DNA from: Halobacterium sp. R2-5
Lineage (GTDB): Archaea; Halobacteriota; Halobacteria; Halobacteriales; Halobacteriaceae
Direction: 5' to 3'
DNA length: 64,000 nt
Assembly (NCBI RefSeq): GCF_011734195.1
Contig: NZ_JAANTH010000002.1
Coordinates: 868,001-932,000, forward strand
In this document: positions 5,481 through 30,754 of the stretch, one piece after another
How positions within the stretch are numbered: position 1 is the stretch's first letter
Layout of the letters: each line of letters begins with the position of its first letter
Notes under the pieces: model-generated
What the model was told of the DNA's origin: nothing
Databases searched by the model: none
The model's input: the letters and a program-made list of their open reading frames with translations, nothing else
Position numbers and translations under genes: made by a program

Positions 5481-6929
5481 TCAGACCCGGTCGACGACCG
5501 TCTCCTCGTCCACGACGAGGTTGTACGCCTCCTCGTCGTCGTTCCAGAGCACGAGCGCGGACTCCAGGGAGAGCAGGTCGCCGTAGTCCGCTTCGCGGAG
5601 GTCGCGGTTGAGGCTCGTCGGCCGGACGAGCACCGCGTAACACTCCTCGCGCTCGCTGCCGTCGCTCACCTTGAACAGGGGGTTCCCGTCTTCGGCGAGG
5701 TTCCGGGAGAGCTTCGCGAGCACCGCGTCGACGCGGTCCGTGACGCGGTCGTCGGCGTCCGCGAGCTTCAGCAGCCGGTCGGCGGACAGCGAGACCTCGT
5801 GCTGGCGGGCCCCGTCGGTACGCAGCAGCGAGTACGAGAACCGGACGTCGGTGTGCGAGAACTCGGAGGGGCGCTGGCTGGCGTCCGCGAGCCGCTTTTG
5901 GAACCCCGGCTGTTCGACCGCGGGACGCTCGTCGAACGTCCAGCCGCGGTCGCTCGGGCGTTCGCCCGGCCACAGCCGCGGCGTCGGGCCGTAGACGGTC
6001 GCGCCCCGGGATTCGAGGTCGCGTTCGACCTCGCGGAGGTGCGTGCTCGTGTGCTTGTCCGCGGGTGCGAGCGCGAGGAACGTGCCATCGTCGGCGAGCG
6101 CGTCGACGTACCGCTGGGCGGTCTCGACCGGCTCGTCGAGTTCGCTGAGCACGCTGCACGCCATCACGAGGTCGTACTCGCCGTCGGGGTCGAAGTCCTC
6201 GGCGGTCTCGCGGTGAATCGTCGGGTGGACGTTCCGCCCGGTCTCGTCGAGCAGTTCGTCGAGGACGTCCGCGGCGTCGCTCGGCTCGACGGCGTGGTAC
6301 TCCACGAGCGCGTCGTCGGGCAGGAAGTCGAAGAGGCCGAGCGCGGGGCCGCCGACGCCCGCGCCGACGTCCAGCACGCGCAGGTCGTCGGTCAGAAGGC
6401 CGCCCTCGGCGAGGTCGTCGAGGACGTACTGGGCCGCGGCGTAGTACGTCGCGAGGTGGTAGACGGCGTACCCGAGCGCGACCTCGTAGTCGTACTCGAC
6501 GGGGTGCTGGCGGTAGTAGTCCTCCTTGAACCGCCGAATCGTCTCCCGGAGCTCCTTCCCGGAGTCGCCGGTGTGCCAGTCCGCGCCCCAGCGCTCGATC
6601 AGCAGGTCCTCGACGACGCGCTCGTACCGCTCGGGGAGCGCGTCCACGCCGTCCCCAGAACGCTCTGCGTTCTGGCGGGCTACGGAAGACGGCTGTGCCG
6701 TCTTCCGAACGTCGAACTCGGGGCGTACCGGCTCGCCGCTCGCCGGGACGAAGATGCCGTCCTCGCGCTCCACGAGGCCGAGGTCGGCGGCGTGCTCGCG
6801 TAACACCTGCCGCACGACCGCCTCGTGGGGCTGGCTCTCGACGTACTCGCGGAGCTCACCGGGGTCAAGCGGCCGCACGCCCCGGAGGTACTTCGCGGCG
6901 TCGAGGACCGCGTCCCTATCGACCGGCAT
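5481..6929 (-). CDS. Rsm22-family ribosomal small-subunit SAM methyltransferase-like protein
   Basis: A 482-residue protein with an N-terminal helical region and a Rossmann methyltransferase core beginning LRVLDVGAGVGGPALG (about residue 184), followed by YHAVEPSD, which binds the SAM ribose, and DLVMACSVLSEL. These features and the N-terminal layout resemble the Rsm22/small-ribosomal-subunit methyltransferase family. The substrate is not established for archaea. Residues about 74-91 are encoded by a two-hairpin palindromic insertion (6655-6710) that looks foreign to the fold, in the linker before the methyltransferase core. The start overlaps the end of the prephenate-dehydrogenase-like gene by 14 bases, so the two are probably co-transcribed. 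Confidence 0.75.
   Translation of the reverse strand: MPVDRDAVLDAAKYLRGVRPLDPGELREYVESQPHEAVVRQVLREHAADLGLVEREDGIFVPASGEPVRPEFDVRKTAQPSSVARQNAERSGDGVDALPERYERVVEDLLIERWGADWHTGDSGKELRETIRRFKEDYYRQHPVEYDYEVALGYAVYHLATYYAAAQYVLDDLAEGGLLTDDLRVLDVGAGVGGPALGLFDFLPDDALVEYHAVEPSDAADVLDELLDETGRNVHPTIHRETAEDFDPDGEYDLVMACSVLSELDEPVETAQRYVDALADDGTFLALAPADKHTSTHLREVERDLESRGATVYGPTPRLWPGERPSDRGWTFDERPAVEQPGFQKRLADASQRPSEFSHTDVRFSYSLLRTDGARQHEVSLSADRLLKLADADDRVTDRVDAVLAKLSRNLAEDGNPLFKVSDGSEREECYAVLVRPTSLNRDLREADYGDLLSLESALVLWNDDEEAYNLVVDEETVVDRV
6655..6710 (-). repeat. In-frame two-hairpin palindromic element, copy 1
   Basis: Two perfect adjacent hairpins: an 8-bp stem with TCT loop at 6656-6674 and an 11-bp stem with TGT loop at 6683-6707, separated by 8 bases. 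Read in the coding direction the cassette gives RKTAQPSSVARQNAERS within the Rsm22-like protein. A related copy in the same frame and orientation relative to its host gene lies at 28701-28757. It is too structured to be ordinary coding sequence. Confidence 0.8.
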
Positions 6930-27830: not shown

Positions 27831-29489
27831 CTAGATGGCTTTCAGGTGGTCGTCGCCGGACTCGTAGCAGCGCCCGCTCATCAGCGCCTCCTGGATGGCG
27901 TCCTCGATCTCGCCCTCGTCGGCGTCGCGTTCGTCGGCCGCCGTCGCGACGACGTTCTCGCGGAGCGCGCCGTCGCCGTCGTCGAGCTCGTCCATCAGCT
28001 CCACGACGTAGTCCTCGAGGTCGAGGTCCATCGACGCGGCCTCTGAGTCCTCGCTGTCCGACTCGGGCTCGTCGTACTCCTCGGCCGTGAAGTCGTCGAG
28101 GTCGTCGGCGTCCTCGTCCTGGGCCTCGTCGAACGCCTCGTCCTCGGCGTCGAAGTCCCCAAGGTCGTCACCGGCTTCGGATTCGGAGTCCGCAGCAGGC
28201 TCTTCGTCCGGTTCGGGCGCGTCGATGTCCGACTCGCCCGCGTCCGGCACTTCCGAGCCCGTGGAGAAGCCGACGTCGTAGTTCTCCTTGACCTCCTCGC
28301 GCTCCTCCTCGGAGAGCTCGTACATCTCGCCGTCGCCGGCCGCCTCTTCGCCCTCCGGTGCGGCCTCCGCGGCCACTTCGTCGGGTTCGGGGGTCTCCGC
28401 CGCCGGACCGGGTTCGGTCTCCGTCTCCGCCTCGGATTCGGACCCTCCGGTCTCGGACTCGGTTTCCGCTCCTGTTCCCGCGGACTCGTCGCCGAATCCC
28501 TGCGCTTCGGGTTCGTTCAGCTCCTCGTCGTCAGCGGCGGGCGAGTCGGGCTGCTCGGCGCCGAACCCCTCTGCCTCGGGCTCCGTGGCCGGCTCGGGTT
28601 CGCTCTCAGCAGCTGATTCCGCTTCGGCTTCCGCTTCGAGGTCGTCCTCCAGGTCGGCTTCGTCGCCCGCCGGTTCCTCGGGGGACTCGATCTCGACGTC
28701 CTCAGACCGCTCTGCGTTCTGATGGGTTGCGGAAGACGACTGCGTCGTCTTCCGAACGCCGAGGTCGGTCGCGAAGTCGAGGGGCGCGTCGCCCTCGTCG
28801 GTCGGGGCGACGGAGAGCTCGCCGACCTCGTCGCGCTCGCCGGCGACGACGCGCGCGGCGTCCAGCGCGAGTTCGCGTACCGCGTCGAGGTACGCCGGCG
28901 TCGTGCCGTAGTGGTCGAGCGCGAGCGGGATGCCCGCAGCGAGTCCGGGCTGGACGCCCCCGCGTTCGAGCACCTCGCGGAGGGTGTCGCCGCGCTCGAC
29001 GCGCTCGTGGGCGGCCGCCATCGTCGCCACGCGGTCGACGGTCTGCTCGGCGGTCGACACCACCCAGCGGTCGCGGGTCTCGGCGTCCACCTCGCTGACC
29101 TCCTCCGGGCGAATCGACGTGTAGACGACGTCCGCGTCGTCCGGCTGGAACGTTCGGGCCTTCCCCGTCACCGCGACGAACGACGGCGTGTCCGCGGATT
29201 CGAGCGCCGCCAGCGCCTCCGGCTGGTACTGGCCGGCGTAGACGACGAACGCGCCCGTCGGGTCGACGACGCGCGCCCGCACCACGTCCTCGCTGACCTG
29301 CTCGACCTCCGTGAGCACGCCCACGACGAACACGCGGTTGACGCGCGCGCCGGTCGGCGTCACCACGTAGTTCGGCGCGCGTTCCTCGTCGCTCTCCGCG
29401 TAGCTGTAGTCCGCGTCCTCGAACTCCGCCGCGAACAGTCGGTAGGCGACCTCGCGGCGGTTGACCTCCTCGGAGTCGGACGAACTCAT
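27831..29489 (-). CDS. rpap1: RPA-associated protein (RPAP) with long acidic C-terminus
   Basis: A 552-residue protein. The N-terminal 230 or so residues are the COG3390 RPAP domain, with an OB-like region (VNRVFVVGVLTEVEQVSEDV, VYAGQYQPEALAAL) that works with RPA in haloarchaeal DNA metabolism. A palindromic cassette encodes residues about 245-263 (RKTTQSSSATHQNAERS). Then follows a roughly 220-residue low-complexity Glu/Asp/Ser/Pro tail and a conserved C-terminal segment (MDLDLEDYVVELMDELDD...GRCYESGDDHLKAI). The start overlaps the rpa1 stop by ATGA, so the pair is translationally coupled. Confidence 0.9.
   Translation of the reverse strand: MSSSDSEEVNRREVAYRLFAAEFEDADYSYAESDEERAPNYVVTPTGARVNRVFVVGVLTEVEQVSEDVVRARVVDPTGAFVVYAGQYQPEALAALESADTPSFVAVTGKARTFQPDDADVVYTSIRPEEVSEVDAETRDRWVVSTAEQTVDRVATMAAAHERVERGDTLREVLERGGVQPGLAAGIPLALDHYGTTPAYLDAVRELALDAARVVAGERDEVGELSVAPTDEGDAPLDFATDLGVRKTTQSSSATHQNAERSEDVEIESPEEPAGDEADLEDDLEAEAEAESAAESEPEPATEPEAEGFGAEQPDSPAADDEELNEPEAQGFGDESAGTGAETESETGGSESEAETETEPGPAAETPEPDEVAAEAAPEGEEAAGDGEMYELSEEEREEVKENYDVGFSTGSEVPDAGESDIDAPEPDEEPAADSESEAGDDLGDFDAEDEAFDEAQDEDADDLDDFTAEEYDEPESDSEDSEAASMDLDLEDYVVELMDELDDGDGALRENVVATAADERDADEGEIEDAIQEALMSGRCYESGDDHLKAI
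28701..28757 (-). repeat. In-frame two-hairpin palindromic element, copy 2
   Basis: Hairpin 1 (28703-28721) has the CAGACCGC-TCT-GCGTTCTG form with one mismatch; hairpin 2 (28730-28754) is a perfect 11-bp stem with TGC loop. The spacer is 8 bases, as in copy 1. The longer stem differs from copy 1 by a paired G-C to A-T change that preserves pairing. It encodes VRKTTQSSSATHQNAERSED in the RPA-associated protein. Confidence 0.82.
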
Positions 29490-30754
29490 GCGTCCACCTC
29501 CGCGAGGAAGGCCTGCGCACGCTCGGCGGGGTCGTCGCCGGACTCGCGGAACTCGGTCGTTTCGAGGTTCGCGCCGTAGTCGTCCACGGAGAGGTGGCCG
29601 CGGACCGTGTACTCCGCGCCCACGAGCGCCTCCGCGATGGTGTCCGCGACGACCTCCTGGTCCATCGCGTCCCGCGCCTGCTGGCGCGCGTCCTCGATGC
29701 CGCCGCCGTACACTTCCTCGGTGAGGTCGCGGTCGAGGATGACCGTGACGGTGTCCGTGCCGTCGTCGAGAATCGCCTTCACGCGCAGGTCGTCCTCGCC
29801 CTCGACGTCGCCGTGCTGGCGGCACTGCCCCTTCTGGACGACGCGCCCGCACTCGGGGCAGCGCTGGATGAGCCCGGAGCCGTCCCGGACCTCGATGACG
29901 TTCCCGACGAGCTCGACGTCGTACGCGCCGCCGCGCTCGACGGCCTCCCGAATCGCCATCCGCGTCGGCCCGCCGACCTCCACGGGCTCGTCGAGGCTCG
30001 CGACCGTCGAGAACTCCGAGACGTTCACCGACGGCACGCCGCGGAACTCGCGGACGTAGACGTCTTCGAGTCGGACGGACGCGCCCTCCGCGAGTTCGGC
30101 GTGGGGGTCCCAGTCCGTGAACGGGAGGCGCGCGCTCTCGTCGCCGAGCACGCCGCTCAGAATCTCGGTCTCGCCGTCCCGGCCGTCGATGGTCCGGGTC
30201 TCGACCTCGGTCACGCGCACCTCGACGTTCCGCCCCCGGTCGCCCGGCGCGAGGTCGGCGAGGCTGCGGTCGCCGCCCACGTCGTAGGGCACGTCGATGC
30301 CCTCGGCCTCGCTCACGGTGGAAGACTCCCCGAAGTTGAGCTCGGGTTCGCCCTCGTACTCGCGCACGCTCGCGTTCCCGATGGTGACCGTGTCGCCGGG
30401 TTCGAGCCCGAAGTCCTCCCACGCCGTGTACGAGATCTTCCCGGTCTCGTCGGCGAGTTCGCCCTCGCCGATGACGTGGTCGTCGCCCTGGTAGCGAATC
30501 GAGCGCTTCCCCGCGGTCAGCACCTTCGCGGTCACCGTGACGTTCCCCGAGTCGGGGCCGACGTCGGCGATGTCCGCTGCGGTCGGGCCGCCCGAGTCGC
30601 CGCCCGAGTCGTCGCCGTACTTCCGACGGAGGCTGCGTTTGGCCTCCTCGACGGGAACGCTGTACTCCACGAGGTTCTGCAGGTTCTCTTTGACCTCCGC
30701 TTTGTCTACACCGAGGTCGGAGGCGAGCTCCTCGGCGTGTTCGTCGACGTTCAT
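29486..30754 (-). CDS. rpa1: Replication protein A, multi-OB large subunit
   Basis: A 422-residue single-stranded DNA-binding protein with an N-terminal helical domain (about 1-55), then at least three OB folds (VTVTAKVLTAGKRSI, LADLAPGDRGRNVEVRVTEV, YDVELVGNVIEVRDGSG) and a zinc finger CPECGRVVQKGQCRQH near residue 315. This is the layout of haloarchaeal Rpa1 rather than the single-OB Rpa3. It heads the operon rpa1-rpap1-rpe-lhr. ATG at 30754. Confidence 0.92.
   Translation of the reverse strand: MNVDEHAEELASDLGVDKAEVKENLQNLVEYSVPVEEAKRSLRRKYGDDSGGDSGGPTAADIADVGPDSGNVTVTAKVLTAGKRSIRYQGDDHVIGEGELADETGKISYTAWEDFGLEPGDTVTIGNASVREYEGEPELNFGESSTVSEAEGIDVPYDVGGDRSLADLAPGDRGRNVEVRVTEVETRTIDGRDGETEILSGVLGDESARLPFTDWDPHAELAEGASVRLEDVYVREFRGVPSVNVSEFSTVASLDEPVEVGGPTRMAIREAVERGGAYDVELVGNVIEVRDGSGLIQRCPECGRVVQKGQCRQHGDVEGEDDLRVKAILDDGTDTVTVILDRDLTEEVYGGGIEDARQQARDAMDQEVVADTIAEALVGAEYTVRGHLSVDDYGANLETTEFRESGDDPAERAQAFLAEVDA

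Follow-up and report, generated by a model that had tools for sequence, protein, structure and literature searches.

The window, by which we mean the whole stretch of 64,000 nucleotides analysed here from Halobacterium sp. R2-5, carries two copies of a short paired-hairpin element, both lying in one shared frame of intact open reading frames: an Rsm22-like methyltransferase gene (5481-6929) and an RPAP gene (within 27831-30422). The features are as follows.

5481..6929, minus strand: Rsm22-like methyltransferase gene containing copy 1 (ORF of 482 aa; Methyltransf_12/Rsm22 hits; orthologues in 26 of 26 family genomes)
6651..6710, minus strand: element copy 1, encoding VRKTAQPSSVARQNAERSGD, in the Rsm22-like gene (covariance-model hit, exact empty site, protein alignment)
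6683..6707, minus strand: hairpin A of copy 1, 11-bp stem and 3-nt loop (sequence, covariance-model alignment)
6656..6674, minus strand: hairpin B of copy 1, 8-bp stem (9 with the flanking pair) and 3-nt loop (sequence, covariance-model alignment)
6711..6713, minus strand: target trinucleotide GAC of the host, directly 5' of copy 1 (most orthologues have it at the empty site)
28698..28757, minus strand: element copy 2, encoding VRKTTQSSSATHQNAERSED, in the RPAP gene (covariance-model hit; relatives L246, L247 and L248)
28730..28754, minus strand: hairpin A of copy 2, 11-bp stem and 3-nt loop (sequence, covariance-model alignment)
28703..28721, minus strand: hairpin B of copy 2, 8-bp stem with one mismatch (non-pair marked in the covariance-model alignment)
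28758..28760, minus strand: target trinucleotide GGC 5' of copy 2 (junction in L246)

A sequence-only reading of this DNA had described paired hairpins in the Rsm22-like gene with a related copy in RPAP, in one frame and with a spacer of the same length, and this arrangement is confirmed by the sequence, the covariance-model hits and the ORFs. It had placed the copies at 6655-6710 and 28701-28757, which is the right location but too short an extent, as the exact inserted segment is 60 bp in both cases (6651-6710 and 28698-28757). It had also called the hairpins perfect, which is true of copy 1, with stems of 11 bp (A) and 8 bp (B, 9 counting a flanking C-G pair) and a 3-nt loop each; copy 2 is laid out alike, with a spacer of equal length, yet one mismatch in its B stem means that its hairpins are not both perfect. 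With a slash marking each insertion boundary, copy 1 reads GAC/GTTCGGAAGACGGCacaGCCGTCTTCCGTAGCCCGCCAGAACGCagaGCGTTCTGGGGAC/GGC on the coding (minus) strand, and both copies follow the coding-strand scheme GRC/GTTC-[A]-spacer-[B]-GRGGAC/. Copy 1 scores 86.7 bits (E 1.7e-23) and copy 2 83.6 bits (E 1.4e-22) under the covariance model, these E values coming from a rough calibration, and the next independent match within the window reaches 17 bits. Both window copies belong to the seed alignment of the model; dozens of unseeded copies score 50-86 bits.

Comparison with loci lacking the element defines its boundaries. The empty site in Rsm22 reads TTCGAC/GGCGTG, and about 24 alignable family loci join both flanks with a gap of 0 and no insert (a few with a one-base alignment offset); one further locus aligned elsewhere by DNA and was uninformative, and protein alignment shows it to be empty too. 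The possibility that the peptide is part of a conserved domain, which orthologues without the hairpins would then still carry, was rejected, since the exact empty site in Rsm22 and the protein alignment show the peptide to be absent from them altogether. Insertion is precise and in frame at two sites in trpB, in fibrillarin and in TnpB: a 60-bp insert occupies trpB of Haloferax profundi and Natrialba at positions 3 bp apart, with more than 20 orthologues empty; fibrillarin carries a 54-bp insert in 2 species, with the exact empty site in 27 congeners; and within one genome two IS copies are filled in their TnpB gene and a third has the empty site GGC/GTC. Comparison with the TrpB sequence places a third TrpB site in G109. 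Precise in-frame insertion is likewise supported at RPAP, where the insert site is a fast-evolving acidic linker; among relatives without the insert, L246 reads ..GACCTCGGC/GTCGAG.. and L247 and L248 read CTCGAC/GTGGAC, so that the junction matches as GGC/GTC in one relative and as GAC/GTG in two.

The right tip of the element is GAC in 159 of the 167 better copies, with GGAC as its fixed form, and insertion occurs 3' of G(A/G)C, the left trinucleotide being GGC in 68 copies, GAC in 67 and others in the remainder. GAC on both sides had suggested a three-base target duplication, but this was rejected: the tip is GAC even where, as often happens, GGC, AGC or AAC precedes the element, and the empty counterparts of GGC sites read GGC. 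Copy 2 is a case in point, as its 5' GGC differs from the terminal GAC of the element. By analogy, we infer insertion beside a short target in a manner resembling IS200/IS605.

The sequence-only reading would have been refuted had the two copies been unique; they are not. An initial DNA search recovered two further loci in the window's own genome (a two-hairpin copy and a four-hairpin chain), together with copies at about 80-86% identity in related genomes. A covariance model built from 22 copies then matched all 26 family genomes at E<=0.05, with 31 matches in the window's genome and 69 in G012, counts that take in overlaps and weak hits; copy number is about 20 in the window's genome and about 50 in one congener. 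At E<=1e-6 the model matched 242 of 292 haloarchaeal genomes across the class (67 of 76 genera); in a sample of the phylum, 54 of 60 haloarchaeal genomes were positive and 0 of 236 non-haloarchaeal genomes had a match at this threshold. A pattern scan of 84,980 genomes returned six haloarchaeal contigs, plus one match that is probably due to chance. The element family is restricted to haloarchaea and is an order-wide phenomenon, with carriers including Halobacterium sp. TGN-42-S1, Haloferax profundi, Natrialba hulunbeirensis and Natrinema zhouii. Intergenic regions and IS605-type elements account for most of the copies, and since many class-wide copies are carried within other repeats, they may have spread together with those repeats. 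An exact scaffold match was also seen in an IMG/VR viral contig (L296:14197-14235), a possible transfer vehicle.

In the hairpins, 97% of cells are paired in the covariance-model alignment, 10 of 19 pairs show compensatory change (18 cells, compared with a mean of 1.9 after shuffling) and G-T makes up 1.6% of 1925 stem pairs. Stems start with C-G first pairs, and loops are of 3 nt in 94 of 107 copies, GAA and GGA being the commonest; the DNA hairpin d(GCGAAGC) is unusually stable. In orthologous copies (a DUF2797 pair and a TnpB quartet) the loops alone differ, with 0 changes at the other 54 and 48 sites, and the flanks of the same copies differ by about 9-14%. The differences among L201, L203, L204 and L123 (TnpB) and between L126 and L174 (DUF2797) lie nearly all in the two 3-nt loops, and fifteen IS-embedded copies flanked by CAGTCTCCACA..TTGATTCGG show nearly the same pattern, with stems and spacer almost constant and loops differing.

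Structural variants were also observed. At G010 C1:2585950 hairpin A lacks one pair and hairpin B has an extra one, and the total stays 60 bp. Chains of three or four hairpins occur at L060, L043, L152, L158, L160 and L162, with linkers CAGTCGACC, GGATGACGA and GAACCACCCAT between the outer A and B. Among L044, L052, L055, L180, L153 and L038-L040, a subfamily with the spacer CGCACACC lies inside palindromes resembling IS605-type left ends, and another occupies the palindrome at a TnpB right end, which recalls the SMR-A targeting described in Haloquadratum. In histidine kinases of the window's genome and G012 (L133, L134, L164, L166 and L167), the HATPase N-box bears repeats of the form AVEHGST..QNAKRSED-AVEHG, sometimes in tandem, with hairpin A formed from the N-box sequence itself; this looks like a related yet distinct insertion or duplication.

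To call copies as coding we applied a codon-usage score, trained on the window, to their 210-bp flanks, leaving the insert unused. By this measure 30 of 200 copies lie in one coding frame on both sides, and 27 of these 30 occupy one frame (+0) on one strand, encoding the peptide xVRKTTxSSSAAHQNAERSED; of the remaining three, one is a chain of hairpins, one a histidine-kinase copy that was mis-anchored and one a weak hit. The result is stable at other thresholds. Given that only 36-42% of GRC sites within genes fall in the +0 phase, target choice alone is insufficient to account for the frame bias (p about 1e-7 against the GRC phase distribution, a value that is truly weaker because some copies are related, and 1e-5 with 20 independent copies). 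Among coding copies, 27 of 30 have a length divisible by three, versus 56 of 136 among noncoding copies (Fisher 1e-6). The element shares with Rickettsia palindromic elements the presence of a palindromic repeat, in frame, in many unrelated ORFs.

The host proteins, as assigned by Pfam, include NAD kinase, MinD, PAS/response regulator, TnpB, DUF2797, lipoate ligase, fibrillarin, tRNA synthetase (W/Y class; TrpRS), ABC ATPase, XPB-like helicase, the PLP-enzyme TrpB, acetyl-CoA synthetase, GNAT, M20 peptidase and PhoU. TrpB aligns lengthwise to solved structures on either side of the insert, which forms a loop without counterpart there. AlphaFold models Rsm22 with a mean pLDDT of 88; values under 50 over three or more consecutive residues occur only at residues 75-92, and the insert alone is left disordered in the prediction. 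Two MinD/ParA-like ATPases from different genomes (L080 and L175) carry the insert at different places, one of them just past the P-loop helix.

Alongside the precise insertion, multi-copy spread, compensatory stems, single frame and kept reading frame observed here, we propose that this is very probably a miniature non-autonomous mobile DNA element of haloarchaea only, tolerated as a predicted in-frame loop. Its unit would be 54-60 bp, GTTC-[hairpin A]-GCAGCCCAT-[hairpin B]-GAGGAC, with stems free to vary while they remain complementary, and it would enter 3' of a GRC trinucleotide that is not duplicated. For genic copies in the sense strand and in one phase, the product would be a loop of 18-20 residues, hydrophilic and disordered, which the host protein would tolerate, and only such genic copies would persist, so that the frame would be set by selection and not by the element; we infer that the filter is tolerance by the host protein. 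By analogy with IS200/IS605 or REPIN/RAYT, the unit may, at close to even chances, move as single-stranded DNA whose hairpins are recognised by a trans-acting enzyme. A bolder version, which we consider possible but doubtful, would make it a haloarchaeal single-stranded-DNA hairpin parasite served by an enzyme other than IS200 TnpA, with triloops changing far faster than stems and short disordered loops placed in dozens of core proteins across the order.

The alternatives differ from this proposal largely in origin and mover. Of these the nearest fit by mechanism is a PATE, in which fused IS605-type transposon ends, left after deletion of the core, are mobilised by IS200 TnpA; this would concern origin and mover and not the in-frame insertion. 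Two near-terminal palindromes, the lack of target duplication, the fixed 3' tip and the short size all agree with it, and an IS605 element of 52 bp, made up of the termini only, has been described in Haloquadratum. We nevertheless regard it as unlikely, because the IS605 ends inspected in the genus have other, GCCGTTTACGGC-type hairpins unrelated to the element, and because near the 23 genus TnpA matches the scaffold occurs as complete inserts only (within TnpB in two IS copies, and once more next to one of these). Moreover, TnpA (PF01797) gave no match in six genus members, the window's genome included. TnpA as the present driver was set aside, as copy number is not significantly correlated with TnpA number (Spearman 0.37, p 0.21). 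No autonomous copy, with a gene separating hairpins A and B, was present in the retrieved loci, where isolated B modules were variants or hairpin chains. An origin as a remnant of the TnpB gene 3' end was rejected, since the peptide is absent from the TnpB C-termini inspected in the window's own genome.

Somewhat less probable still is a REPIN-like doublet, again an account of origin and mover only, in which two inverted REP units with outward GTYC tags (GTTC, GTCC) are moved by a RAYT-like enzyme. The tagged head-to-head hairpins, the intergenic abundance and the chains of three to four hairpins (L060, L152, L158) would suit it, and CGTC-tagged REPs include Rickettsia RPE-4 and RPE-6. Against it, the window's genome and five other genus members gave no PF01797 match to the RAYT (TnpA-REP) gene that would mobilise a REPIN, though one may have been present in the past, a published TnpA survey lists Archaea with the IS200 subclass only and no RAYT (PMC6006769), and the CGTC-tagged REP features (an 8-9 bp stem from A-T pairs, a 4-5 nt loop and a CCA tail; PMC3733652) give way here to C-G first pairs and 3-nt loops. 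That the hairpins are instead a functional RNA structure or regulatory hairpin under selection in host genes, and not mobile DNA, is very improbable: the stems of orthologous copies are indeed unchanged outside the loops amid diverged flanks, but the host genes are unrelated, nearly all orthologues lack the insert, G-T pairs are rare and the same unit also lies between genes and inside IS elements.

As the sequence-only reading had supposed for haloarchaea, we found no earlier account of an archaeal protein-coding palindrome in the open-access literature. The mobile element proposed here would be a second case, haloarchaea-wide, in which selfish palindromes can supply core proteins with new peptide segments again and again. 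As haloarchaea are genetically manipulable, both its effects on host proteins and its mode of movement are testable.

Comparison with known systems places the element close to several of them. It shares with IS200/IS605 transposition (TnpA Y1, HUH) an unduplicated left target, hairpins near both ends and a fixed right tip, but no enzyme is linked to it and TnpA is absent from the window's genome; the terminal inverted repeats and target duplication of MITEs are both lacking. PATEs, a haloarchaeal category of Dyall-Smith et al. 2011, and SMR-A repeats are likewise small and without target duplication in the parts of that account used here (PMC3119063). The PATE pattern of near-terminal palindromes without target duplication recurs in our element (GGC before, GAC at the end, empty site GGC); PATE ends resemble IS605 ends, and no palindromes so related were among the IS605 ends inspected, which were from the genus only. 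SMR-A, as described there, has no known mover and lies in palindromic ends of IS605-type elements, as do some copies here, but is about 110 bp with inverted terminal repeats, unlike our 54-60 bp unit with about 4 nt of terminal similarity (GTTC/GTCC). The same parts of that account describe no coding insertions for either class. The GTAG/CGTC-tagged REPs (Di Nocera 2013, PMC3733652) also form short tagged hairpins, head-to-head dimers and clusters, some of them intragenic; they differ in having loops of 4-5 nt against 3 nt here and no archaeal case among the phyla listed, and in the haloarchaeal element no RAYT was found and spacer and tip are conserved. Rickettsia palindromic elements (Ogata 2000, 2002) are about 150 bp according to a review, and bacterial, in contrast to a haloarchaeal unit of 54-60 bp with two hairpins and a GRC target; the likeness is one of behaviour and need not mean membership in the RPE families, from whose described length and ends the element differs. 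The analogy drawn in the sequence-only reading nonetheless holds for the way of working (PMC10969869; PMC3733652), in that both are dispersed palindromes lying in frame in many unrelated genes and encoding a tolerated peptide.
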